Shown: piece by piece, positions 8,891-28,144 of the stretch
Layout: each line of letters begins with the position of its first letter
Position numbering within the stretch: the first letter of the stretch is position 1
Origin: Nanobdellota archaeon
Lineage (GTDB): Archaea > Nanobdellota > Nanobdellia > Parvarchaeales > Parvarchaeaceae
Direction: 5' to 3'
Length of the DNA stretch: 28,372 nt
NCBI GenBank assembly: GCA_021818905.1
Contig: JAKASS010000011.1
Coordinates: 1 to 28,372, forward strand
Made by a program: the position numbers and the translations under genes
The notes under the pieces: generated by a model
Database searches by the model: none
The model's input: the letters and a program-made list of their open reading frames with translations, nothing else
What the model was told of the DNA's origin: nothing

Positions 8891-9517
8891 ATGAACAATT
8901 CCGGTACGTATAATGAGTTTCTCGCATTTAATCTTGTAGGCGGAGCACTGATTTTACTCGACGGTGCTTTAAATCTGCCTATAAACATGCCGATGCAGGT
9001 ATACGCGATGGCGTTCCAATTCATATCCACAAACGCAATTCACCTATTTTTAAGCATTCTTAGTATAACGATAGGATTAGTCATAATCACCGTGACGCTC
9101 CTTTTTGTGTCTCTAAATCGCAAGGAAAGTGCGACTATGTATTTAATGTTTCTTAGTCTTGGCGCTATAAGTTTTCTCGGCGGCGGCGGATTCGTAATCG
9201 GCGGCATCTTAGTAGTTATCGCCAATATATGGCTAGTTACAGACCGCATAACTAGAAGACCCGCCCACTCTGGACCCGGTCGCATAAGAGCTCTCGCATC
9301 CGTTGCCTCGAGATCGACGTACTTGACCCTACCTGCCAATGAGAGAACAGTATGGAATTTAATAAACAAAGAGAAAGGCAGCATCTTACAGAGCCGGTTG
9401 ATCGTGAGGAGTGGCTTCTCAAAAGTCAATATTACCCGGATATTAAACAGACTTGAATCCAAAGGCCTCATCGAGAGAAGACGCATAGGGATGTCCAATG
9501 TAGTCCTTAGGAAATAA
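8891..9517 (+). CDS. multi-spanning membrane protein with C-terminal wHTH domain
   Basis: 208 aa. Four hydrophobic helices fill residues ~10-120 (for example LFLSILSITIGLVIITVTLL and the glycine-rich ISFLGGGGFVIGGILVVIAN). After a linker, residues ~145-208 form a winged helix: ANERTVWNLINKEKGSILQS, FSKVNITRILNRLESKGLIE, RRRIGMSNVVL. The second half matches the archaeal MarR/DUF7343-like domains that end membrane regulators. A one-component sensor is likely; the ligand is unknown. It precedes the 9617-12460 operon by 100 bp on the same strand but has its own promoter, and the operon has another, so control of that operon is possible. Confidence 0.72.
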   Translation: MNNSGTYNEFLAFNLVGGALILLDGALNLPINMPMQVYAMAFQFISTNAIHLFLSILSITIGLVIITVTLLFVSLNRKESATMYLMFLSLGAISFLGGGGFVIGGILVVIANIWLVTDRITRRPAHSGPGRIRALASVASRSTYLTLPANERTVWNLINKEKGSILQSRLIVRSGFSKVNITRILNRLESKGLIERRRIGMSNVVLRK

Positions 9518-9545
9518 TCTCTCTTAGTGAAACTAGTTACAAAGC

Positions 9546-9610
9546 ACGTTTAAATACCGTTTCTATGCATAAGGTCACTATTCAAACGACGCTATTTCGA
9601 TTTGGAGGAG
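9546..9610 (+). promoter_or_regulatory. promoter and strong Shine-Dalgarno of five-gene operon
   Basis: CGTTTAAATACC (from about 9548) is TATA-like, and GGAGGAGG (9604-9611) ends 5 bp before the ATG at 9617. The strong ribosome binding site decides the start and shows a leadered transcript, unlike most genes here. Confidence 0.55.
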
Positions 9611-9616
9611 GTAAAG

Positions 9617-9844
9617 ATGGAAAAAAGAAAGGATAAAACACAAATGTGGGTTATTATCGCTGCAATAGTAGTGTTCGGAGCCGTGACAATTGCTGCGCTC
9701 GCATTTTTTAGCAACGGGGTTAACGCCGTAAAGTATGGCTCTCTCGGTGATTATGGAATGATGGGCGCCTATGGCGGGATGATGAGTCACTACGCTAATT
9801 ATTCTGGGGCCGGTATAAATGGTGTAACGATGCAGGGGTGTTGA
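9617..9844 (+). CDS. small single-pass membrane protein, Met/Gly/Tyr-rich tail
   Basis: 75 aa from the ATG behind a strong SD; the longer frame from TTG 9602 would translate the SD itself. A basic N-terminus (KRKDK) is followed by one membrane helix (~12-32, MWVIIAAIVVFGAVTIAALA), then an outside tail rich in Gly, Met and Tyr (YGMMGAYGGMMSHYANYSG) ending in Cys. The Met/His-bearing tail could bind a soft metal; that is speculation. First gene of the operon; the next gene begins 24-39 bp later. No family recognised. Confidence 0.65.
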   Translation: MEKRKDKTQMWVIIAAIVVFGAVTIAALAFFSNGVNAVKYGSLGDYGMMGAYGGMMSHYANYSGAGINGVTMQGC

Positions 9845-9882
9845 CGGCCATAAAAAGAAAATTATAAGTGATCATAAGAGAT

Positions 9883-10425
9883 ATGTTCAGGAATTCAATG
9901 AAAACTGCTGGTGTAAGGGTATCGGTATTAGTTACCCTGATGATACTGTTATTTTTATCGTCTATAAAAACCAGTTATGGGATGTGCCCCCTATGCACTG
10001 CCGGCGCTGCAATCGGTCTATCTCTTGCTAGATATTATGGACTAAGCGATCTTATCGTTGGGCTGTGGCTTGGCGCCCTAGCGGTTTCTACTGGATTATG
10101 GATAGCTAAGATAACGAAGAAGAGGCTCGGACGAAAAATGCCATTACAGACGCCCATAATATTCTCGTTGGCAGTGGCAGCAACGGTAATACCGTTCTAT
10201 TACGCTGGCTTTTTCAACGGAATGCCAGGGATGAGCGACACCTTGTTTGGCATAAACAAGCTGTTTTTAGGCATAATAGTGGGAGGGATAATCACATACG
10301 CAGGGGCGCCGATGAGCAATCTGGTCAAAAAAATTAGGGGGGCGGCCTTCCCGTTCCAAGGCATATTTATAACGCTGGGTCTAATGATGTTAGCGTCTAT
10401 CTTGATATGGTATGCTGGCATATGA
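9883..10425 (+). CDS. CPLC-motif polytopic membrane protein, conserved unknown
   Basis: 180 aa from ATG 9883; GTG 9868 would add five residues. A signal-anchor-like helix precedes CPLC (C35/C38 in CPLCTAGAAIGLSLARYYGL), followed by about four more helices. From recollection, proteins with this CP.C...(A/G)..G.(G/S).(A/S)R(Y/W)xG layout are widespread unknowns in candidate-phyla bacteria and DPANN archaea. The Cys pair next to the membrane suggests thiol exchange or metal binding. The stop overlaps the next ATG (ATGA, 10422-10425), so the two are probably translationally coupled. No named family assigned. Confidence 0.7.
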   Translation: MFRNSMKTAGVRVSVLVTLMILLFLSSIKTSYGMCPLCTAGAAIGLSLARYYGLSDLIVGLWLGALAVSTGLWIAKITKKRLGRKMPLQTPIIFSLAVAATVIPFYYAGFFNGMPGMSDTLFGINKLFLGIIVGGIITYAGAPMSNLVKKIRGAAFPFQGIFITLGLMMLASILIWYAGI

Positions 10426-10949
10426 TCAAAATGGAATCAAAAAAAGATAAAAACATTGCAGAAACCGTGAATGACGCGTTTAGAAAGATAAAAGATTTGG
10501 AGCATTCGAATAAACTGGACCTATCCTCTAAAGAGGATCTGAGCATTGCTCTTATGAACCTAATCTCGATAGAAGAACACCTGTACTTTAGCGGCGCCAA
10601 AACCGGAAAAGACGAGTATTTTGCCCTTCTGGATTCTGTACGAGAGATAAGGAAAAATCTGATGGCGGGGCTTGTGAAGAAAGGAGAAGGCGAGGAATGG
10701 TGCGTATCAAAACATCTTCTAGCGGCGACGATGCGCCTTATAGAAGTCGGCATGAAGGAATTCAAGGCCGACAGGAAATCTGCAGAAACGAAGTTCACTA
10801 TAGCATTTAAGCTCTATTCGTTGTTTTGGGAAATAAACCTCTTGTCCAGTTCCAGCGGAAAGTACTTGAAACACATGCCAGAAAAGTTTAAAATAAGAAA
10901 CGGTTGGGCGGCTTTCATAAAAAAGGCCCTCGACTGTTGTAAGGAGTGA
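10422..10949 (+). CDS. soluble all-helical protein, conserved partner of CPLC protein
   Basis: 175 aa from the ATG that overlaps the upstream stop; an in-frame ATG at 10407 is less likely because it lies deeper inside the previous gene. Predicted helical throughout, with no signal or membrane segment. The best-conserved-looking block is EEWCVSKHLLAATMRLIE, followed by AFKLYSLFWEINLL, and the chain ends ALDCCKE. I recall similar WC.SKHLLA..MRL.EVG proteins beside CPLC genes in candidate-phyla genomes; no function is known to me. Likely cytoplasmic partner or chaperone of the membrane protein. Confidence 0.65.
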   Translation: MIKMESKKDKNIAETVNDAFRKIKDLEHSNKLDLSSKEDLSIALMNLISIEEHLYFSGAKTGKDEYFALLDSVREIRKNLMAGLVKKGEGEEWCVSKHLLAATMRLIEVGMKEFKADRKSAETKFTIAFKLYSLFWEINLLSSSSGKYLKHMPEKFKIRNGWAAFIKKALDCCKE

Positions 10950-10955
10950 TTTCAT

Positions 10956-11348
10956 ATGAAGGTAAAACATCTGCTCATGGCAATAATTGCATTGTCCGTC
11001 GTAATCGGAGTAGTATATTATCTTATCAGTATTTCAGCGGCTTCCGGCGTCCCGCAGAACAATGGGCAGACGGTGTTCGAAGGAAAACTACTATACAGCA
11101 AATTCAGCGCGCAGACGCTAAACGACAGCCATGTCCTGTCGGATAACGGTTGCAAAACCGATCCAAGGAATGGATTGTCTAATTGTACGGCCGGAATAGA
11201 GACGCAGTATGGTACGCTATACTTCGATTATGAGCACGACATGATGATTAATCCGTGCCTTTCCAGCGGAGATATCGTGAATATCGATATTGCAGCCAAC
11301 GACACGGCCGAAGTTACCAGAACATATTGGGGCGGGGGAGGGACTTAA
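10956..11348 (+). CDS. membrane-anchored extracytoplasmic protein, unknown
   Basis: 130 aa. A good SD (AAGGAGTGA, 10940-10948) supports the ATG at 10956; the SD overlaps the upstream stop. One N-terminal helix (LLMAIIALSVVIGVVYYLIS, residues 6-25) is followed by a ~100-residue outside domain with three cysteines (in NGCKT, SNCTA and NPCLS) that may form a disulfide. A short Gly run closes the chain. Fourth gene of the operon, 14 bp before the next. No family recognised. Confidence 0.65.
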   Translation: MKVKHLLMAIIALSVVIGVVYYLISISAASGVPQNNGQTVFEGKLLYSKFSAQTLNDSHVLSDNGCKTDPRNGLSNCTAGIETQYGTLYFDYEHDMMINPCLSSGDIVNIDIAANDTAEVTRTYWGGGGT

Positions 11349-11362
11349 GTTTATAAATCGGC

Positions 11363-12460
11363 ATGGAAGACTGTTGCGGCGGAGATAAACGTGATGATAA
11401 ACATGAGGAGAGGCGCGATTCGCACGTGGAAAAAGGCGATGAAATGCACGGCGGTGATAAGGACAAAGGCAGAGAGGCCAATGATCTGCTTAAGAATGCC
11501 GTGAATCCACAAAACAACGCGCAAAATCGCCCAAAAAAGAAAACGTTAGTACTGATCACTGCTGTCGCCGGCGCAGTTTTTATAGTAGCTTTAATCGTCT
11601 TTCTGCTGTTTATCAACGTAAGTAGCAAAAATGCCGCGGGTGTAAATTCACTCTTGCAGAATACGCCGATTCATGGTCCCAGCGATATAAACTTTAATTC
11701 GCTTGCGCAAACCGTTTATCCGTACGGCGGTTTTATACTGCCTGTCGTATGGGGAGATTCCATAAAGATCCTTTTAGAAAGCGGCGCACTGAACAAAACC
11801 GCGCTCGTCGCCGCAATCGAGTCGAGCAACCAGACGCTGACTCCTTATGAGACAGCGATAATGAACGGAACATTTGATGGTTATATTTATGTAAACCACA
11901 GTGATAGCTCCTTTTTGCTGTATGCCCTGTGGAGTTTAGGCGTTAATAACAATAATTCTATAATAGACAAAGGGCCGCTTATGCAACTGGGAGACCCCGA
12001 CAACTACGCCAGTACCGGTGGCTATCTTCCACTCGGAGAATTGCGGTTAGGTGCGCTGAGCATAATAAATTTGACGCCACTCCAGGAGTCCGAGGCTATC
12101 AATATATCAGAAGCGACCTTTAGACCCTGCTGCAATAATCCTGCGGCATTTCCGGATTGCAATCACGGTGCTGCCGAATTAGCCTTGATAGAGATGATGA
12201 CTTCACAAGGCTATAATCAAAGCACTACCTTTAAGGTGCTTCGTAACTTTTTGTCGGAATACTATCCACAAAACATGTTTGATGAGGCAGTCGTGTTTGC
12301 TTCGCAGGGGGTGAACTTTTCTTCGGTGTCTGCCAATACCACCGTAAGTTACTCTCTTTTCAGTGCCACTGGAGCACAGAATGTCGGTGCTTATATCCAG
12401 AAATATGGCCTGCTCCAATCCAGTTCGACCTCAAGTGGGGGGGGCTCTTGCTCGGCGTGA
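11363..12460 (+). CDS. CC/DCNHG extracytoplasmic protein with metal-binding-like N-terminus
   Basis: 365 aa. Residues 1-57 are hydrophilic and rich in His, Cys, Asp and Lys (MEDCCGGDKRDD, DSHVEKGDEMHGGD), a likely cytoplasmic metal-binding tail. One helix (60-85) follows, then a ~280-residue outside domain. It contains FRPCCNNPAAFPDCNHGAAE (254-273), which I recall as the signature (CC.N..AFPDCNHG) of an uncharacterised family in candidate-phyla bacteria and DPANN archaea. The clustered Cys, Asp, Asn and His look like a metal or cofactor site. The chain ends in a Ser/Gly linker with a Cys (GGGSCSA), possibly a tethering point. Last gene of the operon; the 368-bp repeat starts 9 bp after the stop. 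Confidence 0.72.
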   Translation: MEDCCGGDKRDDKHEERRDSHVEKGDEMHGGDKDKGREANDLLKNAVNPQNNAQNRPKKKTLVLITAVAGAVFIVALIVFLLFINVSSKNAAGVNSLLQNTPIHGPSDINFNSLAQTVYPYGGFILPVVWGDSIKILLESGALNKTALVAAIESSNQTLTPYETAIMNGTFDGYIYVNHSDSSFLLYALWSLGVNNNNSIIDKGPLMQLGDPDNYASTGGYLPLGELRLGALSIINLTPLQESEAINISEATFRPCCNNPAAFPDCNHGAAELALIEMMTSQGYNQSTTFKVLRNFLSEYYPQNMFDEAVVFASQGVNFSSVSANTTVSYSLFSATGAQNVGAYIQKYGLLQSSSTSSGGGSCSA

Positions 12461-15210: not shown

Positions 15211-15420
15211 ATGACCGAAATTGACAAATCCGCACAGAAAGAATACTTAGACGCTTGGTCAAAAGCTCAGGAAAAACGCTTTGAATTGATGCGGGCCGTA
15301 AAGAAAGGCGGGCGGAAAAAAATTATGACCATACAAAAAGAGTTAGAACCTTTGGAAAGAGAGTACGATGCATCCCTAAAGAAGCTGCTTGAGAACGGGA
15401 ATGCTAGCCTCCAGGATTAG
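15211..15420 (+). CDS. small charged helical protein, unknown
   Basis: 69 aa, about half Lys/Glu/Arg/Asp, predicted helical and possibly coiled-coil (AQEKRFELMRAVKKGG, then IQKELEPLEREYDASLKKLL). No membrane segment or motif. Its own TATA box argues for a real gene. The last codons overlap the stop of the convergent transposase gene by 17 bp, so the original C-terminus may have been replaced when the element inserted. Confidence 0.5.
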   Translation: MTEIDKSAQKEYLDAWSKAQEKRFELMRAVKKGGRKKIMTIQKELEPLEREYDASLKKLLENGNASLQD

Positions 15421-16957
15421 CCAAAGTAATTAGTTTTATCGAGAACATTTTAGCGGTTATCTGCGTCTTTGTCGTATTCAAATCGAAGTAAGCTAACAAT
15501 AGCAAGTCTATCAATATCCAGTAATTGTAAAGAATGACCGAAAGCATAAAGTAAAAGTATCTTATTGTATAGTTTAGAGATGTTGTTTTACCCCTAAACA
15601 CGTACTTTTTGGATCTGTAACCAGTTTCGATTTGCCATCTTCGCCTGTACATTTCTCCAACTCTCTTCATCATCAGCGTATCATTCTGCGTCACATCCAT
15701 ATTTGTAGCGAATCCGTGTCTTTTTCTGGCTTCATCTCTTTTTGTTTCGCGTTCTATGACTATTAGATTAAACCTACAAGTTCCTAATGGCATGTTTCTT
15801 CTTATAAACGGTGCCTTGAGAGTATTGGTAGAAGTGATTGCCTTTGAGTTTTCTTTGGTCGGCATTATGTACTTTATGTCCATCTTATTTAGTAGGTTTA
15901 TTACTGGCGTACCATAGAAGCCCCTGTCCAGATAAGCCGTGCCGATATGTACTCTTTCCTTCGCAAACAACAGAAGCTTCTCAACTAAGTCAGTCTGATC
16001 ATCTTGAGGTAAGACTGGCAAAGCAAACAAAGTAAATCGCTGGCCGTGGTTTACTACATCAATTGTTATGAATTTGAAACACCAGCTTGTGCCTCTTTCA
16101 GGCTTTGTGCCGACTATCATTGGATGATTCGTGTCACCATAGAAGAACCAAGAAGTTGCGTCTATTGCGACATCAAAAGGTCTATCAGATATTAGCTTGC
16201 TTCTTTTTGCTATCTTTACTAAGATGTCAAAGGTATCTTCAAACATTTTCTGTAGATCTCTGAATGAGTTCTTTTTTAAGTGATAGAATAAGGAATCTGC
16301 TAAAGGAGTTCGCTTTTCAATTATAGTAGAAAGAACCTTTGCGCCATTCTCAGCGAAGTCCTGGCTAAGTGCAATGTGTATCAGAAGATTTAGATAATCT
16401 TCCTTTTCGAAGATAGAGTTATAATTGATGTCAAATTTTATTCTCTTTGATAATTCACCTTTAACAAAGTGGATGAGTTCCTTCTCTTTGTTAGTTCTTT
16501 CTTTTATATCTGTTAGTGGAGAAAGCGATTCCCGCTTCTTAAAAACCGTTCTATCTAAGACTATGTTGTACTTATCTGCTAATTCGTTTATGGTCTTTAC
16601 TACGAAGTCAACCAACCGTTTTTGGTCGATGGTTAAGGTCTTTATGAAATGTGATAGCGCCTGTTGGGTTGGTAAGATCGACGCGGTTTCGCCTCTGTCA
16701 AAGCCGAGATTTAATGCGTCTCCAGGATTCTTAGTAAGTTCTTTAATCAATGCTCGTTGAGATTTTAGACCCTTCAAAATGCCAAATATGTGGGCTTTAA
16801 GCATCGCATCTTGAGAGAACGTTCTACGTATACTTAAAGAAGGGGCGAGATTAAGTTCTTTTAGAATATAAGAAACTGTAATTTTATCGTTTGATTTTAG
16901 TAGATTAGCTAGAACTTCTTTTAGCTTTAGATTCAAATATTTAGGTTTCGTTATCAT
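15404..16957 (-). CDS. IS4-superfamily DDE transposase (copy A)
   Basis: 517 aa. Residues 1-255 are helical and DNA-binding-like. The RNase-H-like core has D266 (FDVAIDATSWFFYGD), D344 (TAYLDRGFYG) and E444 in YRRRWQIETGYR, matching the Y-(2)-R-(3)-E signature of the IS4 superfamily. An insertion between the second Asp and Glu, and the family-like MPTKEN strand, are also present. No frameshift, so it could be active. It shares the same architecture and the final GG-stop with copy B at 23058-24608 but is clearly a different element. I could not find convincing terminal inverted repeats. Confidence 0.88.
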   Translation of the reverse strand: MITKPKYLNLKLKEVLANLLKSNDKITVSYILKELNLAPSLSIRRTFSQDAMLKAHIFGILKGLKSQRALIKELTKNPGDALNLGFDRGETASILPTQQALSHFIKTLTIDQKRLVDFVVKTINELADKYNIVLDRTVFKKRESLSPLTDIKERTNKEKELIHFVKGELSKRIKFDINYNSIFEKEDYLNLLIHIALSQDFAENGAKVLSTIIEKRTPLADSLFYHLKKNSFRDLQKMFEDTFDILVKIAKRSKLISDRPFDVAIDATSWFFYGDTNHPMIVGTKPERGTSWCFKFITIDVVNHGQRFTLFALPVLPQDDQTDLVEKLLLFAKERVHIGTAYLDRGFYGTPVINLLNKMDIKYIMPTKENSKAITSTNTLKAPFIRRNMPLGTCRFNLIVIERETKRDEARKRHGFATNMDVTQNDTLMMKRVGEMYRRRWQIETGYRSKKYVFRGKTTSLNYTIRYFYFMLSVILYNYWILIDLLLLAYFDLNTTKTQITAKMFSIKLITLANPGG

Positions 16958-16958
16958 A

Positions 16959-17034
16959 TTACTTTTAGATATATTACTTAAAAGGAAGTTATCCTATATA
17001 AGCATTTCCTTTTAAGTATATCCTTTAAAAGTAA
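16959..17034. promoter_or_regulatory. 76-bp imperfect palindrome between transposase and zinc-ribbon gene
   Basis: The arms 16959-16987 and 17006-17034 are inverted repeats: TTACTTTTA...ACTTAAAAGGAA against TTCCTTTTAAGT...TAAAAGTAA, with 12 perfect bases nearest the centre. It starts 1 bp upstream of the transposase ATG and ends just before the TATA box of the divergent zinc-ribbon gene. It could be an IS end, an operator or a cruciform. Confidence 0.6.
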
Positions 17035-17065
17035 GTTATAAATAGTCGTATTGCGTAAATTATCT

Positions 17066-17203
17066 ATGTCACAATTCAGCGTCTTTGCTTACAAGTGTGA
17101 AAGATGTGGTCATAGCTGGGTACCAAATAACTTGTTCGGAAAACCGAGAGTATGCCCCCATTGTAAAAGTCCTTATTGGGATGTGCCTAAAAAGAGAAAA
17201 TAA
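17066..17203 (+). CDS. zinc-ribbon microprotein
   Basis: 45 aa: MSQFSVFAYKCERCGHSWVP, then CPHCKSPYWDVPKKRK. Two CxxC knuckles (C11/C14 and C32/C35) 18 residues apart form a complete zinc ribbon. Very similar stand-alone ribbons (..Y.C.RCGH.W.P....P..CP.CKSPYW..P.) are common in archaea and are often annotated only as zinc-ribbon proteins. TTATAAATAG lies about 25 bp before the ATG, consistent with a leaderless transcript. Convergent with the nuclease-like gene 10 bp downstream. A DNA/RNA-associated regulator is plausible; function unknown. Confidence 0.8.
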   Translation: MSQFSVFAYKCERCGHSWVPNNLFGKPRVCPHCKSPYWDVPKKRK

Positions 17204-17213
17204 ATTCCTTTAT

Positions 17214-18311
17214 CTATAATTTTAAAAGATTTTCTATTTCATTAATTAATTTGTTAATATGATCTTTAATAACCATAGTTAATTTATTTGGGTCCATTAG
17301 GGCGTCTGGATTTAAATTATAACCGATTGTATTAATATTGCTATAACACCAAATAAAATCATCAGGCTTTATAGTAATGGTTCCAAAATAACTTGATTGT
17401 TTAGTGTCAGGTATAGTACTAATTAATTGAGAGTCTTCTTTTTCTTTAAACGGAGCAAATAAAATAGTTTTCACAATTGCATCCCCGAAAAGTTTCTTTA
17501 GATTTAAATGCTGGTTTTCTAATTGTCTATTCTCTCGGTGTTTGCCAAATTTAAGTTCAGCATTAATAACTATTTGTTTGCCATCGTTTTTATCTAATAA
17601 AAGTATGATATCATGTGCCGGGAAATCGAATTCCTGCATTTTTGCAGCGCCAACAACTTCTTTTTTATATTCTGGATTGGGTAATCCACCAACATATCTT
17701 AAAAAGTTTTTGGGTTTAAAATGCTTAAATAATTTATCAAATAAAATCGCTTGGAAAAACTCATGTGGGTTTTCAATTGTAAAATCTCTTTGAACGTCTA
17801 CAGTTCCAATAAAATTTAATATTTTTGGATTATTTATAATTAAATTTTTAATTAGTTCTTTACAACTATTAACATTTTCAGATTGTTTAAAACCAGTTTC
17901 GTCTAGATAATCTTTACATAATCTAGCGCACGTTTTCTTTAGTTCCAAATCGCAAGACAGAATTGCGCCAGCTCGTAATATATAAATTATATTTGATAAG
18001 CTTTCCTTTTCGTCCTTAGCTTTAGTTTTTTGGATGAATCCATCTAGTATACTATCAGAAGATTTGGCTGCGCCTTCCAATGTTTGTAAGGGATTTTTGC
18101 CCCATACAAACCAAGTTTTTTTAGCACTTTTAATTAGACCGGTGTCAATCTGATATTTTTTAAAGCTCTTTTCATTATATATTTTTATTAAATATTGTAA
18201 ATACCCTGCAGTTAGAATTTCATCGGAAGGTTCAACTATGTTAATGTTGTCCCTGACGCCATTGAAATTATCTAAAAATATGGCCCTTATTTCTGACATA
18301 ACGGGCTTCAA
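17214..18311 (-). CDS. PD-(D/E)XK-like nuclease-domain protein, third gene of defence-like operon
   Basis: 365 aa, unrecognised overall. The C-terminal half has the pattern of a PD-(D/E)XK nuclease core: HDIILLLD (D234) followed after 17 residues by INAELKFGK (E252-x-K254), with a helix rich in Glu/Gln/His after it (HRENRQLENQHLNLKKL). An earlier Glu in ENPHEFFQAILFDKLF could complete the site. The N-terminal ~170 residues are helical with no motif I know. The ATG overlaps the upstream stop by 4 bp (18308-18311), so it is coupled to the Panacea-like gene. Restriction-like effector or toxin is the best guess; the nuclease call rests on one motif. Confidence 0.6.
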   Translation of the reverse strand: MKPVMSEIRAIFLDNFNGVRDNINIVEPSDEILTAGYLQYLIKIYNEKSFKKYQIDTGLIKSAKKTWFVWGKNPLQTLEGAAKSSDSILDGFIQKTKAKDEKESLSNIIYILRAGAILSCDLELKKTCARLCKDYLDETGFKQSENVNSCKELIKNLIINNPKILNFIGTVDVQRDFTIENPHEFFQAILFDKLFKHFKPKNFLRYVGGLPNPEYKKEVVGAAKMQEFDFPAHDIILLLDKNDGKQIVINAELKFGKHRENRQLENQHLNLKKLFGDAIVKTILFAPFKEKEDSQLISTIPDTKQSSYFGTITIKPDDFIWCYSNINTIGYNLNPDALMDPNKLTMVIKDHINKLINEIENLLKL

Positions 18312-18880
18312 AATGCAATTGGCCCGTGTAATTTTGCACTTTTTACTTCTGGTAAGCTATGTACGTAGTTTAATAGATGATTAAGAGATGTAGCCAATTC
18401 AAATATTGGATGGGTGTCAATATTATTTTCTATTAAGACTCGAACAGTTTCGATATTGATATTTTCTTTTTGTGGTATAGAATTTAGTTTAAAATCATAA
18501 AAACTGGTCACATTTGAAATAACGTTCTCTGATTTCAACTGTTCTAAATCATCTAAAATTTCCCAAGAAAGTGGTCCAAGTCGCTCTAGTATATAATTAT
18601 AAGGTGAGAGGTGACTTTTAGTATCCTCTTTAAATTTTTTGTCCAGCAAATATAATATTTTAACTATTCTTAATTTATCTATCTCGGTGTGACCATATTC
18701 TCCAAGCGCCTTTTTTATAACATACAGAACAAGAGCTCGTCTAATTTCTATTGGTGAAAGTGCGCTTTCCATTCTGGGTTTTAGTTTATGGTGTTTTATA
18801 GAGTCCTTTCTATATTTAAGCTTAATAACTGTAGGTTTATAACTTCTTCTCTTCGTCAGCTTTTTAACTTTTTCTTTCAT
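18308..18880 (-). CDS. possible Panacea/SocA-like (DUF4065) antitoxin-type protein
   Basis: 190 aa. After a basic N-terminal tail of ~40 residues, the core reads IDKLRIVKILYLLDKKF, then YILERLGPLSWEILDDLEQL. The KL.K.LYL.D helix and the GP(L/F)S turn before a helix are features of the Panacea/SocA-like fold. Panacea domains serve as antitoxins against very diverse toxins encoded next to them, which fits the adjacent nuclease-like gene. It follows the 67-aa gene after 1 bp and overlaps the next by 4 bp. An internal ATG (18772) would remove the basic tail. The assignment is tentative. Confidence 0.55.
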   Translation of the reverse strand: MKEKVKKLTKRRSYKPTVIKLKYRKDSIKHHKLKPRMESALSPIEIRRALVLYVIKKALGEYGHTEIDKLRIVKILYLLDKKFKEDTKSHLSPYNYILERLGPLSWEILDDLEQLKSENVISNVTSFYDFKLNSIPQKENINIETVRVLIENNIDTHPIFELATSLNHLLNYVHSLPEVKSAKLHGPIAF

Positions 18881-18881
18881 A

Positions 18882-19085
18882 TCACACTTTTGGTTTTATA
18901 TAATTTTTCTCAACTAACCACGAGATTACGATTTTATTTATCGCATCAGGTCTGTCTTTTGCTAAACCACCTTTAATTAAACTGTCCACAACGATCAATT
19001 GCTCTTTTGTAAAAGGCGTGCGCACATACTCGCTTTTGACCTTCCTTTTCTTTAATTTAGTAGGGCCCTTATCTACAATTGTCAT
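18882..19085 (-). CDS. small basic protein, probable ribbon-helix-helix-type DNA binder
   Basis: 67 aa. Basic N-terminus, then TPFTKEQLIVVDSLIKGG followed by LAKDRPDAINKIVISWLVE. One strand-like segment and two helices with a loop (KGGLAKDRPDAI) resemble RHH/CopG-type regulators. It is the first gene of the three-gene operon. The upstream 129 bp shared with the divergent endonuclease is extremely AT-rich and repetitive (TATATAAATATTATATAATA), a good place for its own binding. Probable autoregulator of the operon; class call is moderate. Confidence 0.5.
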   Translation of the reverse strand: MTIVDKGPTKLKKRKVKSEYVRTPFTKEQLIVVDSLIKGGLAKDRPDAINKIVISWLVEKNYIKPKV

Positions 19086-19214
19086 ATAATATAATGAAAT
19101 AAGATCTATATAAATATTATATAATAATTATATGAGTATTAAATAATCTTAATATTATAATAAATTTAATAAAAATTCTTAAAGAAATTTATGAACATAC
19201 CGCCTAAAGATTAA
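19086..19214. promoter_or_regulatory. divergent AT-rich promoter region
   Basis: Between the 67-aa gene and the endonuclease. Nearly all A/T with overlapping TATA-like and palindromic runs (AATATTATATAATAATTATA). Two TATA candidates point outward: TTTATATAG towards the minus-strand operon and AAATTTATG about 28 bp before the ATG at 19215. Confidence 0.5.
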
Positions 19215-20231
19215 ATGAAGATATCTCATGACTTAGGTTTAACCGAGACCCAATTTTGTAGGATGGCCATAACTGTTAAAATGTTATTCTCTAATATTCT
19301 TGGGCATGCTGCAGAAAGACAATACGAGAAGGCTCTAAAAAATAAAGATATACGTTTTACGAAAGCGCCTACCGATACACATTATGATTATTTAGTTGGT
19401 AAAGAAAGACAACAAGTAAAGCGATTTGAATCCGCGTCTACAGATTCTAATTTTATTGGAGTAAATTTAACTAAAACTCATGGCGATCGTTCTGGGGCAG
19501 ATGCTTTTTATAAGATAATAGATTTTGATAAGCTTATTTTATTTGATGTTGGTTTATCAAATTATATCAAAGTTAATGTAAAAGATATACCTAAAAATCC
19601 TAAGTACCAAAAAAGACTGATTGGGAGTTATAAAATCAAAAGAAAAAGGATTTTAAAAGGCTTTAATCTAGATTTTTTATCCGCTATGAAAATTCATAAT
19701 AAATTGTTTCCTGAAGCCATTGAATCTCTAAAAAAGAAATATAATTTAGGTTATAAAGAGCTATTAGAACGTAGCTGCAATTTATCACTAACAGAGATAG
19801 ATGCGCTATTTTCTAAGGAAAACTTTAGATTAATTACTGGCGCAAAAGGATTTGCAGCAGAGGAGAGATTAAAATTTTTATTAGAAAAGAATGGATTAGA
19901 GTTTAAACAAAATACTGATATGTACAGTAAAATTGATATCTGGGTCAAAGACAAAAGAGTTCAGGTAAAGACACCAAATGAAAGAGCTAACACAGAAACG
20001 CATTGGGGTGTAAAATTACACAAGTCCCATGGTCATGGACTCGGCGAACTTTGTCCAGTGGACGCATTTGATATCTTAGCTCTTTTCGTTGGCGGCAAAA
20101 ATCAGAACAGTTTCGTTTTTGTACCGATATTCGATTTAGACAAGTACCCCGGCCATCCCGAATATTTAAAACGAATAGGAAAAATTCAAAAGAAAAAGTA
20201 TAGAATAAATGATTTTAGCATCTTTGATTAA
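19215..20231 (+). CDS. probable Type II restriction endonuclease with two tandem PD-(D/E)XK-like domains
   Basis: 338 aa containing an internal duplication. First unit (~30-113): GHAAERQYEKALKN, D58 in HYDYLVGKERQQVKR (Q67-x-K69), then GVNLTKTHG and DAFYKIIDFDKLILFDVG. Second unit (~212-294): GFAAEERLKFLLEKN, D241 in KIDIWVKDKRVQVKT (Q250-x-K252), then GVKLHKSHG and DAFDILALFVGG. Each keeps the Glu-helix, Asp and QxK of a PD-(D/E)XK fold (Q replacing D/E, as in several restriction enzymes). Two catalytic units in one chain could cut both strands alone. Stop overlaps the convergent methylase stop (20228-20231). The nuclease fold is inferred; the duplication is plain. Confidence 0.72.
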   Translation: MKISHDLGLTETQFCRMAITVKMLFSNILGHAAERQYEKALKNKDIRFTKAPTDTHYDYLVGKERQQVKRFESASTDSNFIGVNLTKTHGDRSGADAFYKIIDFDKLILFDVGLSNYIKVNVKDIPKNPKYQKRLIGSYKIKRKRILKGFNLDFLSAMKIHNKLFPEAIESLKKKYNLGYKELLERSCNLSLTEIDALFSKENFRLITGAKGFAAEERLKFLLEKNGLEFKQNTDMYSKIDIWVKDKRVQVKTPNERANTETHWGVKLHKSHGHGLGELCPVDAFDILALFVGGKNQNSFVFVPIFDLDKYPGHPEYLKRIGKIQKKKYRINDFSIFD

Positions 20232-21025
20232 TCGTGATAGTGCAACAAATTGGCTTTAAAATTAGTTATTACTACTTCATTTGTTTTTTTGCGCCGCCCC
20301 TCACTCATAAAATATGTAAAATTAATCTGAGAGATATTCGCCCAATCATATAATTTTCTAACGCCGGGGCAATCATCATAAGACAAAACAAATTTAAATC
20401 TGGTCTCCCTCAAAAGATTTGCAAGTCTTATGTGGTCGCCCCCTTTAAAATCATTTGTATAAAGGGATTTGGCGGCGTTATAATAAGGTGGATCTAAATA
20501 CATCAATACACCCGAATTTTCTGACTTGGCTAATATTACATCTGAAAAATCAAGATTTGTTATTTTCACGTCCTTTAATTTTTGGGCGACGGGTTCGATT
20601 GTTTTTGTCCATTTATATGGTGGGATACTACTACCTAAGGCAAAACCCCACCTAGGATTCTTCATTATTCCGCTGAACGATGTTCTATTTAAATAGAAGA
20701 ACCTGAATGCCTCTTCTATCTTTGTCTTAGGCACCCTCTCTTTTACTTCCTTGTGTCTATCCCTATTCGCAACTTCTTTATCTAGAAGTTGATATAACTG
20801 TTTTCTTGCATCCTGATTCTGGATAATCTTATAAAAGTTTATTAAATCTTTGTCGATATCATTAATCCAATTCAGTTTTGGAGCCAATTCTTTAGCTAAG
20901 AAAACAGATAATCCTCCAGCAAATACTTCTCGGTATTCATCATGTTTAATCTCAAGAAATTTCTTGATTTTATTGGATGCATAAAATTTACCACCGGGGT
21001 ACCTTAAACATGTCTTTACTTTCAT
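20228..21025 (-). CDS. D12-class N6-adenine DNA methyltransferase (second of pair)
   Basis: 265 aa from ATG 21025 (TTG 21037 would overlap the upstream gene by 8 bp). LRYPGGK (7-13), REVFAGGLSVF (motif I, AdoMet binding), INDIDKDLINFYK (motif II) and YLDPPYYNA (motif IV, catalytic DPPY at 178-181) identify a Dam/D12 alpha-class enzyme that methylates the N6 of adenine. NRTSFSG and SYDDCP, also typical of the class, are present. It is paralogous to the gene upstream on the same strand but far from identical. Only 4 bp separate them, so they are co-transcribed. The pair and the convergent endonuclease make one restriction-modification system. Confidence 0.92.
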   Translation of the reverse strand: MKVKTCLRYPGGKFYASNKIKKFLEIKHDEYREVFAGGLSVFLAKELAPKLNWINDIDKDLINFYKIIQNQDARKQLYQLLDKEVANRDRHKEVKERVPKTKIEEAFRFFYLNRTSFSGIMKNPRWGFALGSSIPPYKWTKTIEPVAQKLKDVKITNLDFSDVILAKSENSGVLMYLDPPYYNAAKSLYTNDFKGGDHIRLANLLRETRFKFVLSYDDCPGVRKLYDWANISQINFTYFMSEGRRKKTNEVVITNFKANLLHYHD

Positions 21026-21029
21026 AGTA

Positions 21030-21854
21030 CTATACAAAGGACAACAGGCTTTTATTATCTTTTAATTTGAAATTAGATATAAATAATTCATTTCCATGTT
21101 CTCTTGGATTGAAATGGACTCTAGCATTGGCTACGCTATACGTCCAAGTACGCTCATAGAAATTGGCCCAATTATATAAATCTCTAATAAACTTGCAATC
21201 GTCATATGTAAGTAAAAATTTAACCTTAGTTTCTTTTAGAAGCTTTGCAAGTCTTATGTGGTCATCTTTCTTAAAAGAATGCGCATATGCAACAATCTGA
21301 CGACTTTCTGCATAGGGAGGATCTAAAAATAGAAAGACCTCTTTTTCTCCTTCCGGTCTAGCTTTTATAACGTCTTCAAAGTCTAGATTAGTAATTTTAA
21401 CATCAGACAACTTTAGTCCAGTTTCTTCTATAGTCTTTTTGGCAGATTTGATGTTAAATCTGGCGTCTCCGATAAAAGATTTCCACATAGTTATACCTGA
21501 AAAAGAGCATCGGTTAAGTATATAATACCGACTAGCCTTCTCGTAAAAATTCTTAGGTTTTGCATTAAAAAGGTCTTCGTACATTTTTTTGTTTATCTTT
21601 GTATTCTCTAAATCAAAAATTAAATCCTTGCGCATTTTTGCATCGGCTATAACCTTATAAAATGCTATTAAATCGCTATCAATATCATTAATCCAGTTAA
21701 ACTCAGAAAGCGGTTTGTTTATGAAAACTGAACCGCCACCCAAAAACGGTTCTCTATACTCGTCGTGTTTTACTTGTTCCCAAAATGGTCTGATAAATTT
21801 TATTGCCTTCAGCTTACCACCAGGATACCTAAATATAGATTTTAATTTTTCCAT
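21030..21854 (-). CDS. D12-class N6-adenine DNA methyltransferase (first of pair)
   Basis: 274 aa from ATG 21854 (a GTG at 21872 is possible). FRYPGGK (8-14), EPFLGGGSVF (35-44), INDIDSDLI, NRCSFSG, FLDPPYAES (DPPY 178-181) and LTYDDC place it in the Dam/D12 alpha class with the same motif spacing as its downstream paralogue. The sequences between motifs differ, so target recognition probably differs too. The start lies 13 bp inside the end of the triple-HTH gene, so it is likely translationally coupled to it. In Type IIS systems two such enzymes often protect the two strands of an asymmetric site. Confidence 0.92.
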   Translation of the reverse strand: MEKLKSIFRYPGGKLKAIKFIRPFWEQVKHDEYREPFLGGGSVFINKPLSEFNWINDIDSDLIAFYKVIADAKMRKDLIFDLENTKINKKMYEDLFNAKPKNFYEKASRYYILNRCSFSGITMWKSFIGDARFNIKSAKKTIEETGLKLSDVKITNLDFEDVIKARPEGEKEVFLFLDPPYAESRQIVAYAHSFKKDDHIRLAKLLKETKVKFLLTYDDCKFIRDLYNWANFYERTWTYSVANARVHFNPREHGNELFISNFKLKDNKSLLSFV

Positions 21855-22561
21855 TTTGTTTCTTTCAACCACTTCTTCTTTTCTAAGAATGTTTGTTTTA
21901 TAATATTTAGTCGTCGCTTACTTAAATCTTTTGAATTAGATATGAGTGCCTTCTCAGCAACGGCTTCTCTACCGTGAATAAAGAATAAAAAACAGTTGCC
22001 GAAGACTACACTTCTTACATCCGCGTCTCTTTTCAATACCCTGTATATTTTGATGTCTTTTCGGTTCATCAGGATAAAGCCATTGTTTATTAGTCTACAT
22101 AATAGTTTGAAATATCTACCACTAACTCTGCTCTTTTCGCTTTTTATGTCGGATGTCCAGCGAACAACACTAGGGTAGCTTACTTTTAGGATGTTCGGAA
22201 TTGCGGTCTTTTCAACACCAATTCTAGCTAATTGTCTAGCTTTCTGCTTTACTGCGACAGGATATATTTTGAATTCTCTACCATCTCTGCCTTTACCTAA
22301 CCAGCGATTCAATGACCTGAAACCAACGCCTAGTTTTATCGAGATCTTGAGTCTCGATAACCCAGACTTATAGAGTCTTTTTGCTTCTTGTTTTGTCTCT
22401 TTTGAATAGGTCTTGTTTTTGTAAGTGCTAGGAATATTCCAGCGCCATATTGTGGCGGAGGAAATCCCTAATATCTGAGCGGCCTTATTCTTGCTTAAGC
22501 CATATTGGACCATCGCCCTTACTTTGGCTTTTTCTTGTTCCGTATAATGTCTTCCCGTCAT
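21842..22561 (-). CDS. triple helix-turn-helix protein upstream of methyltransferases
   Basis: 239 aa from ATG 22561; a TTG at 22609 would add 16 residues, but TTTATAG lies about 20 bp before the ATG. The N-terminal half has three homologous homeodomain-like HTH units: YTEQEKAKVRAMVQYGLSKN with ILGISSATIWRW; YSKETKQEAKRLYKSGLSRL with LGVGFRSLNRWL; YPVAVKQKARQLARIGVEKT with LKVSYPSVVRWT. The C-terminal ~95 residues (ILMNRKDIKIYRVLKRDA, then VRSVVFGNCFLFFIHGRE) are unrecognised. It overlaps the first methylase gene by 13 bp. It may be the controller of the R-M system or a specificity factor; homing-type intron proteins also carry such HTH arrays. Confidence 0.7.
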   Translation of the reverse strand: MTGRHYTEQEKAKVRAMVQYGLSKNKAAQILGISSATIWRWNIPSTYKNKTYSKETKQEAKRLYKSGLSRLKISIKLGVGFRSLNRWLGKGRDGREFKIYPVAVKQKARQLARIGVEKTAIPNILKVSYPSVVRWTSDIKSEKSRVSGRYFKLLCRLINNGFILMNRKDIKIYRVLKRDADVRSVVFGNCFLFFIHGREAVAEKALISNSKDLSKRRLNIIKQTFLEKKKWLKETKWKN

Positions 22562-22730
22562 ATCTATTTTAGAAGGAACTGCTATAAACCAGCTTGTATC
22601 GTTTGTCAAAATAACCTATTTTTGGGATAGCACTTTCACAGGGGGCGTCTTCACAGAATGCCACTCATAGCTTACAGCAAGGGTTTTACGAAGCAGATTT
22701 GTCAAAAAACACTTTCGGAACTACTGCTTC

Positions 22731-23057: not shown

Positions 23058-24608
23058 TTAGCCACCAAAGTCTTCTTTTATGGACATTAAGATCGTACCG
23101 AACTGTTTAGCGCTTACTAAAGTCTTACCAGCACGAAGGCCGAGAAATGCAATGACTAACATATCGACGAAAAGCCATAAATTATACAGAACTACGGACA
23201 GCATAAAATAGAAATACCGTATCAGATAATTTCTTGACGTAGTCTTGCCTCTGAACGCGAGAGCCTTGACACGATAGCCAGTCTCTATTTGCCAGCGTTT
23301 TCTATAAAGATTAGCTATCTCTTTAGCGAACATTACGTCATTTGCATTTAGGTCCATATTAGTGACAAAACCATGCCGTTTATGCTCTTCTTCTACCATA
23401 ATCAGATTGTAACTGCAATCTGACATCTTGCAGTCCTTTACAATAAATGGCGGTTTTAGTCCTCTGGCATTTGAAACAGCCTTGGTATTGTCTTTCGTAG
23501 GAATTATGAAGGTTACGCCAAGCTTCTTGAGTCTGTTTATGCATTCAGCAGAAAGAAAACCCCTATCAAGATAGGCTCTGTTTATGCGTACCCTCTCTTT
23601 TGCATAGTTTATCAGTTCCTCGACTTGATTTGTTTGATTATCCAGCGAAGAGACCGGCAAAGCAAGGAGCGTAAACCTTTCTCCACGCTCGACTATGTCT
23701 AGAGTAATGAATTTAAAGCACCAAGTGGTCCCGCGTTCGGGCTTTTTGCCGACCACTATAGGGTCACTATGATCACCATAATAGAACCATTCTGTCGAGT
23801 CTATGGCTACGTCGACTTTCCTGTCGATGATTAGCCCAGAACGCTTGGCTAGCTTGAATACGGTATCGAATATCTTCATAAAAACTCCTCTCAATTCGTC
23901 AAAATCTCCGGTCTTTTTCAAATGATAAAAAAGTGTATCCGAGTTTGGGACTCTATGGTTTCTCAGCAGATTAAGTGTCTTTGAGCCGTTTTCCGCGAAA
24001 TCCTGTGTAAGCGCTATGTGGATAAGCAAGTCAAGCAGGTCCGAATCCTTAAAAAAAGCATTTTTATGCATGTCAAATCTAAGCCTTTTTAACAATAGCC
24101 GCTTTACTTCAGCACAGAGCTCTTCCGTACGTTTAGTCTTCCTATCTAGGATAGTCTTATCGCAGACGGTTTCGTTTTTGGCAGTCGTCTTCCTTTGCAT
24201 TATTTCTCTATCTAAGACGATGCCAGTTTTATCTGCGATGTCTTCTATAGTTTTAACTACGAACTCGACCAGTTCTTTATCTTCTTGTGTAAGCTTCTTG
24301 TTTACAAAGTATTCTATACTCCTTCTGTCAGGGGCTCTTAGTTTGTCGTCAGAATCTCTACAGAACCCGAGCGCAACCGCATCATCTGGATGTTTGCGTA
24401 AGAATTTGGCAAGCTTTACATGAGAGCTAATTTCTTTAAGCTTTGAGAACACAAGAAGCTTTAGCATGGAGTCACTAGAAAATATAGTTCTAAGACTTAT
24501 ACATTCTTCTAGTGTAATGAAGTTAAGAATATTTGATATCGTTAACTTAGATTCGCCCTTCTTAATCGCGAGATATATCTGCTTCCTTAGCAAAACAAGA
24601 TTGTCCAT
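23058..24608 (-). CDS. IS4-superfamily DDE transposase (copy B)
   Basis: 516 aa. D270 (VDVAIDSTEWFYYGD), D348 (RAYLDRGFLS) and E442 in YRKRWQIETGYR reproduce the IS4 Y-(2)-R-(3)-E signature. The KPERGT(T/S)WCFKFIT block and FRGKTTSRNYLIRYFYFMLS tail align with copy A (15404-16957) at about the same positions, but many residues differ, so these are two separate members of a group. The frame is intact. An AT-rich imperfect palindrome lies just before the ATG (24609-24645), as in copy A. Together the two genes bracket the 17-22.6 kb defence-like block in the same orientation. Confidence 0.88.
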   Translation of the reverse strand: MDNLVLLRKQIYLAIKKGESKLTISNILNFITLEECISLRTIFSSDSMLKLLVFSKLKEISSHVKLAKFLRKHPDDAVALGFCRDSDDKLRAPDRRSIEYFVNKKLTQEDKELVEFVVKTIEDIADKTGIVLDREIMQRKTTAKNETVCDKTILDRKTKRTEELCAEVKRLLLKRLRFDMHKNAFFKDSDLLDLLIHIALTQDFAENGSKTLNLLRNHRVPNSDTLFYHLKKTGDFDELRGVFMKIFDTVFKLAKRSGLIIDRKVDVAIDSTEWFYYGDHSDPIVVGKKPERGTTWCFKFITLDIVERGERFTLLALPVSSLDNQTNQVEELINYAKERVRINRAYLDRGFLSAECINRLKKLGVTFIIPTKDNTKAVSNARGLKPPFIVKDCKMSDCSYNLIMVEEEHKRHGFVTNMDLNANDVMFAKEIANLYRKRWQIETGYRVKALAFRGKTTSRNYLIRYFYFMLSVVLYNLWLFVDMLVIAFLGLRAGKTLVSAKQFGTILMSIKEDFGG

Positions 24609-27042: not shown

Positions 27043-27162
27043 TTGGACGTCGCATCAAAAGGCAAATACAAACTACTTAGCTTAATTTATGGCCTATTCG
27101 TTTTAGATGTTCTAACGGTAATAGGCACCACTATAAATTTACTCAACAGAGAAGATATTTAA
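27043..27162 (+). CDS. possible 39-aa single-pass membrane microprotein
   Basis: TTG at 27043, stop TAA 27160-27162. Translation: short basic head (DVASKGKYK), one hydrophobic helix (LLSLIYGLFVLDVLTVIGTT) and a polar tail (INLLNREDI). TTATTTAATAAC (27017-27028) lies about 20-25 bp upstream as a TATA candidate. The 3' end overlaps the reading frame of the IS5 transposase by 4 bp. A non-ATG start and no homologue make this uncertain. Confidence 0.35.
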   Translation: MDVASKGKYKLLSLIYGLFVLDVLTVIGTTINLLNREDI

Positions 27163-28073
27163 TCTTTGTCTAGCATTCGGCTCTGTAGAAATCCTATGAT
27201 AATAATATAAGCAAGCTGTATGCATCGCCGGATGTCGTAGACTACGTCGATCACCTTCACTTCCTTAAGCTTGTTCAGATGCAGCCTGCTGCTCAAGGTG
27301 GAGCCGAACTTCCTCTTCTCCACGGAGTTGACGGTCTCCACGATGCTTCGTTTATGGTACTCGTCAAGTGGAAAAGATGCTTTCATCAGCTTCCTCCATC
27401 TTCCCCTGGTCTTCCATATCGGAACGCCTTCATTCCTTGCAGGAATGATCGATCCTGCGTGAAGACGCTCTCTTGCGAACCTATGATTTCTCTCCGAATC
27501 GTATCCTTTATCAGCCAGTATCTTATCGATCTTTACCATTTCGGCGGCTTTCTTCATGAGCGGTCTGAAGGTCTTATTGTCGCTTTCATACCTTCGGTTG
27601 GAGGAGGAAACGGCTATCGCTTCCGTCTTCGGGTCTACGACGATGGGATGCTTGGTAAACACCTTTCTACGCAGTTCTTCGCCTATCCTCCACAAGTAAT
27701 GGTAGGAAGCATTGCGTTCTTCGTATCCAGTGGAGTCTATGGCGGCGTCCATTCTTCTTATCCCGAACAGTCCGAACGCCAAGGACAGCATCGCGTCCCA
27801 TACTCGCAGCGGTATCCGTTTGAAGAATCTCTGCAGTGTCGTATAATGAGGGACTTTATCGAAGTCAAACAATCCCTTGAGCTCTTCCAGCTCGTCTACG
27901 ACGTCCCGATAAGGCTTTCTCTCGTGTCTCATCAGGCAGATGCACGCGGCAAGCTGTGGCTGCGTGTAGGTCTTCTTGGAGAACTTGTTCGAGAATGGCG
28001 ACAACGCCCTCCTCGCTATGCCCAATACGATGGACGCAAATCTTTTATAGTAAGGACTCCCATTTTTATTCAT
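27159..28073 (-). CDS. IS5-like DDE transposase
   Basis: 304 aa from ATG 28073, preceded by AAAGAGGTG as SD; a GTG at 28079 would add two residues. DDE triad, numbered from the GTG: D115 (DAAIDSTGY), D190 (ILADKGYDSE), E248 (SIVETVNSVEKR). The N-terminal helix-rich DNA-binding part (QPQLAACICLMRHE, then FKRIPLRVWDAM) is typical of IS5 group enzymes. The stop lies outside the element: the last residues (GFLQSRM) are encoded by the left inverted repeat and the final few come from flanking DNA, so this insertion made a slightly longer C-terminus. Frame intact, so possibly active. Confidence 0.9.
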   Translation of the reverse strand: MNKNGSPYYKRFASIVLGIARRALSPFSNKFSKKTYTQPQLAACICLMRHERKPYRDVVDELEELKGLFDFDKVPHYTTLQRFFKRIPLRVWDAMLSLAFGLFGIRRMDAAIDSTGYEERNASYHYLWRIGEELRRKVFTKHPIVVDPKTEAIAVSSSNRRYESDNKTFRPLMKKAAEMVKIDKILADKGYDSERNHRFARERLHAGSIIPARNEGVPIWKTRGRWRKLMKASFPLDEYHKRSIVETVNSVEKRKFGSTLSSRLHLNKLKEVKVIDVVYDIRRCIQLAYIIIIGFLQSRMLDKD

Positions 28074-28144
28074 AAGCACCTCTTTTTTTGTTTATTTCTT
28101 ATAATCATCAAGGAGGTGCTTACTTTAGAGGATTTCTACAGAGC
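27179..28144 (-). mobile_element. IS5-like insertion sequence, complete
   Basis: Bounded by perfect 17-bp inverted repeats: GGCTCTGTAGAAATCCT (27179-27195) and AGGATTTCTACAGAGCC (28128-28144), giving 966 bp. I see no clear target duplication at the edges (flanks AGCATTC and CTGGGAA). It carries one gene, on the minus strand. Confidence 0.85.
28128..28144 (+). repeat. IS5-like inverted repeat, upstream end
   Basis: AGGATTTCTACAGAGCC, inverted copy of 27179-27195 and identical to 405-421. Confidence 0.85.

Follow-up and report, generated by a model that had tools for sequence, protein, structure and literature searches.

A probable mobile Type II restriction-modification system with a tandem-unit candidate endonuclease and two D12 methylases in a Nanobdellota archaeon

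The locus and its genomic setting

The DNA analyzed here, which we call the window, is a stretch of 28,372 nucleotides from a Nanobdellota archaeon (Parvarchaeales; Parvarchaeaceae) and comprises positions 1 to 28,372 of contig JAKASS010000011.1 (assembly GCA_021818905.1, forward strand). On its forward strand it carries a gene for a 338-amino-acid protein (positions 19215–20231), termed R, a candidate restriction endonuclease built as a tandem duplication of a unit of ~155–165 amino acids. Two adjacent genes on the reverse strand encode D12 N6-adenine methylases: M1 (20228–21025, with an ATG at 21025 and the longest open reading frame extending to 21037), which adjoins R, and M2 (21030–21854, with an ATG at 21854 and the longest open reading frame extending to 21872). 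Both match the Pfam model PF02086, with 112.5 bits for M1 (E = 3.6e-32) and 115 bits for M2 (E = 6.2e-33) against a cut-off of 22, and both contain a DPPY motif. The original prediction of two adjacent methylases converging stop on stop with R is borne out, as R and M1 overlap by four bases at their stops (20228–20231). The placement of DPPY at residue 178 in both methylases is also correct when counted from the two ATG starts; from the starts of the longest open reading frames, the motif lies at 182 in M1 and at 184 in M2. Besides these two genes, no further D12 genes were found in the 945-kb host genome. According to the list of open reading frames, the start of M2 is overlapped by a gene for a 255-amino-acid HTH protein (21842–22609, reverse strand; HTH_23, E = 1.3e-9), a possible regulator of the methylase genes. 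This protein contains repeated HTH segments.

R, M1, and M2 are located on a low-GC island (17001–22000; 29–35% GC versus ~43% in the first 14 kb of the contig) that sits between two diverged ISH3/IS4-type transposase genes, both on the reverse strand. Both were identified by Pfam and NCBIfam profile matches, and the second (23058–24608) shares 74% DNA identity with the first (15404–16957) over 65 nucleotides. The system was likely acquired by horizontal transfer, and the island is probably recent because sister genomes in the genus lack it; R was absent from all 14 other genomes of the genus that were searched. A third DDE transposase gene (27159–28079, reverse strand; PF01609) lies near the contig end. 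The island also carries a Panacea (SocA) antitoxin-like gene (18308–18880, reverse strand), directly followed by a gene for a 365-amino-acid protein with no Pfam match (17214–18311, reverse strand); together (17214–18880) they possibly form a PanAT-type toxin-antitoxin pair.

Two homologous units in R

The original prediction gave the coordinates of R and the residues of its two E...D...QxK units exactly: E34/D58/Q67-V-K69 in the N-terminal unit (19215–19682) and E216/D241/Q250-V-K252 in the C-terminal unit (19761–20228), both on the forward strand. Each unit matches the unit profile, in which the sequence itself is included, and carries its invariant positions. The pair of motifs alone is the weaker evidence for a duplication, as at least two matches occurred in 0.4% of whole-protein shuffles of R. 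What counts is the homology of the two halves, which align over almost their full length with a Smith-Waterman score of 106 (z = 13.6), whereas 2,000 shuffles produced a mean of 31.7, a standard deviation of 5.5, and a best score of 60. Two units and a short linker account for the chain, and no separate recognition domain was identified in it.

Apart from a weak hit to a PHROG whose function is unknown, the R family is not represented in the profile libraries that were searched: models from Pfam, NCBIfam, and PADLOC did not match R. Profile comparisons were more informative. The unit profile scored 26.8 against Mrr-type PD-(D/E)XK nucleases, where 150 column-shuffled controls gave a mean of 9.9 (standard deviation 2.0) and a maximum of 18.8, and it scored 18.8 against Hjc, where the column-shuffled maximum was 17.9. 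The E and D residues of the units are in register with the GxxxE...D pattern of the Mrr catalytic domain (Mrr_cat, PF04471) and archaeal Hjc (PF01870), and the sequence of the units contains the E...D...(E/Q)xK residues of PD-(D/E)XK enzymes; the QxK variant is also found in the host's Hjc-like gene. Mrr_cat weakly matches two of the three tandem R proteins that we describe below (best E = 0.0054; 17.3 bits, below the gathering cut-off of 21) and does not match R from the window. In addition to such scores below Pfam gathering thresholds, R differs from Mrr and Hjc in its architecture, and neither of these is known to pair with two methylases. A match to phrog_5018 elsewhere in the host genome, on a different contig, was considered as a second copy of R and rejected, as it corresponds to the Hjc-like gene.

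An AlphaFold model of full-length R built from one sequence had a pLDDT of 33, and a model of one unit built from a four-row unit alignment reached 45, with an order of helices and strands that is compatible, at low confidence, with an alpha-beta core. Foldseek returned nothing usable for the latter model, and profile searches of the PDB with R profiles matched no convincing chain. Because the AlphaFold models are too poor, we infer the PD-(D/E)XK fold from sequence likeness: the R units are predicted to be Mrr-like nuclease domains that would be catalytically active.

Tandem-unit and single-unit relatives

The first homologue of R came from a tblastn search of plasmids, which produced a single weak match (E = 2e-5), a 410-amino-acid protein encoded on a Planktothrix agardhii plasmid (locus L002). 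The second, on a phage-like contig from IMG/VR (locus L004), was found with an alignment of the window and Planktothrix proteins. The two homologues share 51% identity, and each is 25–27% identical to R from the window. Both of their genes are convergent with two D12 methylase genes, as in the window, and the layout is thus common to all three full-length tandem R proteins known. It has been kept over a great distance, from an archaeon to a cyanobacterial plasmid and a phage-like element. Scans of a genome collection, with R alone or with the two-row alignment, and a search of phage records found no relatives of R, and a DNA-pattern scan for the conserved motif of the C-terminal unit matched only the already-known viral contig. 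Within the phylum, tandem R was detected in 1 of the 343 genomes searched. The tandem system in L004 is directly adjoined by McrBC-type genes (9126–12241 of that contig) on one side, with phage-type genes, including one for lysozyme, on the other. At the Planktothrix locus, an HTH_3 gene overlaps R (L002, 5645–5890), unlike the HTH gene of the window, which overlaps the start of M2.

The original prediction had named the occurrence of the R gene elsewhere without methylases as evidence against it; instead, both of the other full-length homologues face two D12 methylases. This association bears on the possibility that R is not a partner of the methylases, being instead a modification-dependent nuclease of the Mrr kind, or a different DNA enzyme, that came to lie beside a methylase pair by chance. 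On the one hand, its closest profile is that of Mrr, which is a Type IV enzyme, and a related methylase pair in two other loci (L008 and L009) adjoins an unrelated HindVP endonuclease. On the other hand, all three tandem R genes, on unrelated replicons, face two D12 methylases, the single-unit relatives described below face one, and a nuclease cutting methylated sites next to active methylases would be self-destructive. We consider a chance association very improbable and treat R, M1, and M2 as parts of one system. At L008 (5001–7877), the orthologous methylase pair (59% identical) is convergent with the HindVP-type endonuclease gene and adjoins a C5 methylase; no tandem R was found near this pair, and its endonuclease may have been replaced or lost.

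All six units of the three tandem R proteins share G30, D58, Q67, K69, G90, and G113. The position of E34 is kept in five of the six, the C-terminal unit of the Planktothrix protein having Q there. In the bacterial-type proteins the two units are strongly diverged and the C-terminal units are longer. The missing glutamate and the longer, diverged C-terminal units would suit an enzyme in which one unit cuts and the other serves in recognition or dimerization, so that a double-strand cut would need two R molecules, in a Type IIS-like manner. However, the D and QxK residues persist in every unit, and the C-terminal unit of the window protein retains all four motif residues; we consider a single cutting unit unlikely.

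Three further proteins, of 266–301 amino acids, contain one GKxFEF...D...ECK center each. They are encoded on a phage-like contig (L015), on an Acinetobacter plasmid (L016), and in an archaeon of the same phylum as the window (L103), and in each case the gene is convergent with one D12 methylase gene. The single-unit profile scored 37.3 against the tandem units (null maximum of 20.3 in 200 comparisons), in an alignment that is secure only near the N-terminal helix, the GxxxE motif, and the YxxxDFD segment. Single-unit R was found in 1 of the 343 genomes of the phylum searched, and when other D12 genes from the phylum were sampled, the relative in L103 was the only R-like gene beside them. A separate locus in another genome of the phylum (L097, 1535–3958; G310:C6) contains three D12 methylase genes in tandem at the end of a short contig.

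The number of units equals the number of methylases at all six loci with an R gene, one and one in three of them and two and two in the other three. As the two numbers match, a paired-duplication origin of asymmetric-site systems is now testable. A one-unit endonuclease gene was probably duplicated and fused to give the tandem form, and its single methylase gene duplicated along with it. More tentatively, a joint duplication of endonuclease and methylase could have turned a one-unit/one-methylase system, presumably with a palindromic site, into a fused two-unit/two-methylase system with an asymmetric one, both states persisting in one archaeal phylum as well as in phages and plasmids. This might have happened more than once, independently in archaeal and bacterial lines; trees of units and methylases do not decide whether the window pairs (the halves of R, and M1 and M2) share the bacterial-type duplication or arose separately.

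Methylase specificity and comparison with known systems

M1 shares 48% identity with either Planktothrix methylase and 49% with M2. M1 scores above and M2 below the cut-off of the dam subfamily model (TIGR00571), and both match DpnM (2dpm) in the PDB. The likeness of M1 to M2, the dam score of M1, and the DpnM matches, together with the similarity that the halves of R in the window still show, would agree with a Type IIP-like system. In such a system the two units of R would form a covalently linked pseudo-homodimer acting on a palindrome, and the second methylase would either be a spare or modify the site in another form, like the paired adenine methylases of DpnII-type systems. The presumed target-recognition hairpins, placed approximately by analogy with Dam at 20570–20665 in M1 and 21402–21491 in M2 (both reverse strand), argue against it. 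Within a locus, the hairpins of the two partners are 28–45% identical, compared with 47–49% for the rest of the protein. For M1 and M2 these values are 28% and 48%, and for partners at the bacterial-type loci (Planktothrix, L004, and L008) the hairpin identity is 32–45%; the hairpin of M2 is 14% identical to those of the bacterial-type partners versus 40–47% elsewhere. Yet among bacterial-type orthologues the hairpin is kept, with 65–74% identity for the proximal and 84–94% for the distal methylases versus 55–64% for the rest, and proximal and distal methylases form two separate supported clades. M1 and M2 have no close orthologue, and what is seen in the window is the divergence of the hairpins within the pair. 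The strong divergence of the units in bacterial-type R proteins also speaks against a pseudo-homodimer, and to our knowledge DpnA, the partner enzyme in DpnII systems, is not a D12 methylase. We therefore regard the palindromic reading as unlikely.

The hairpins differ within a locus but are conserved among bacterial-type orthologues, so M1 and M2 likely have different targets, as would be expected if each methylated one strand of an asymmetric site. The original proposal that two methylases serve such a site is supported to this extent: the methylases probably see different targets, and the asymmetry of the site would follow from it. Judging from sequence, the locus is probably a mobile Type II restriction-modification system built on the Type IIT plan, with a single-chain endonuclease for an asymmetric site and two methylases. 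R, with its two homologous Mrr-like PD-(D/E)XK (E...D...QxK) units, would bind this site so that each unit reads one half and cuts one strand, and M1 and M2 would each methylate an adenine in one strand and thereby protect the host. If both catalytic sites are active, single-unit mutants would provide matched strand-specific nicking enzymes from a compact 338-amino-acid chain. The main text of a survey of archaeal systems does not mention Type IIS or Type IIT (PMC10609329), and the window would add a probable Type IIT-like system to archaea.

Type IIT enzymes have two different catalytic sites, some of them in a single chain, and are generally accompanied by two methylases; Mva1269I, BtsCI, AciI, BsrI, BssSI, and BsrBI are described single-chain examples (PMC4081073). 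By sequence, R resembles them in having two diverged homologous units, with D and QxK kept in three homologues, and in the two D12 methylases found at all three tandem loci, which in Type IIT systems generally act one per strand of the asymmetric site. The original prediction is supported in its restriction-modification module and its two nuclease-like units in one chain. For these, the label Type IIT, which denotes two different catalytic sites and an asymmetric sequence cut inside or near the site, fits better than the Type IIS framing, in which a separable domain cleaves at a fixed distance; there is no evidence of distant cutting or of a separate recognition domain in R. The methylases of FokI are of D12 type as well. 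FokI also has two methylase activities for its asymmetric site (PMC4081073) but differs in having one cleavage domain with a separate DNA-binding domain, and in the fusion of its two methylases into one chain. BbvCI, the best-studied heterodimer, consists of two homologous subunits (~27% identical) with one active site each and works when these are tethered by a 21-residue linker (PMC6326814). In BbvCI, solved as a heterotetramer (PMC6326814), and in Bpu10I the subunits are separate, whereas R is a natural fusion. Mva1269I combines an EcoRI-like and an FokI-like catalytic domain (PMC4081073, title of reference 127), in contrast to the two homologous Mrr-like QxK units of R.

A single-chain enzyme with two catalytic sites is not without precedent: the literature already describes such enzymes together with paired methylases (PMC4081073), although the kind is rare and sparsely described, and R may be a distant relative of one of them. 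What appears to be new is the R family itself, its use of two Mrr-like units that are homologous and lie within a single chain, and the parallel relatives that have one unit and one methylase.
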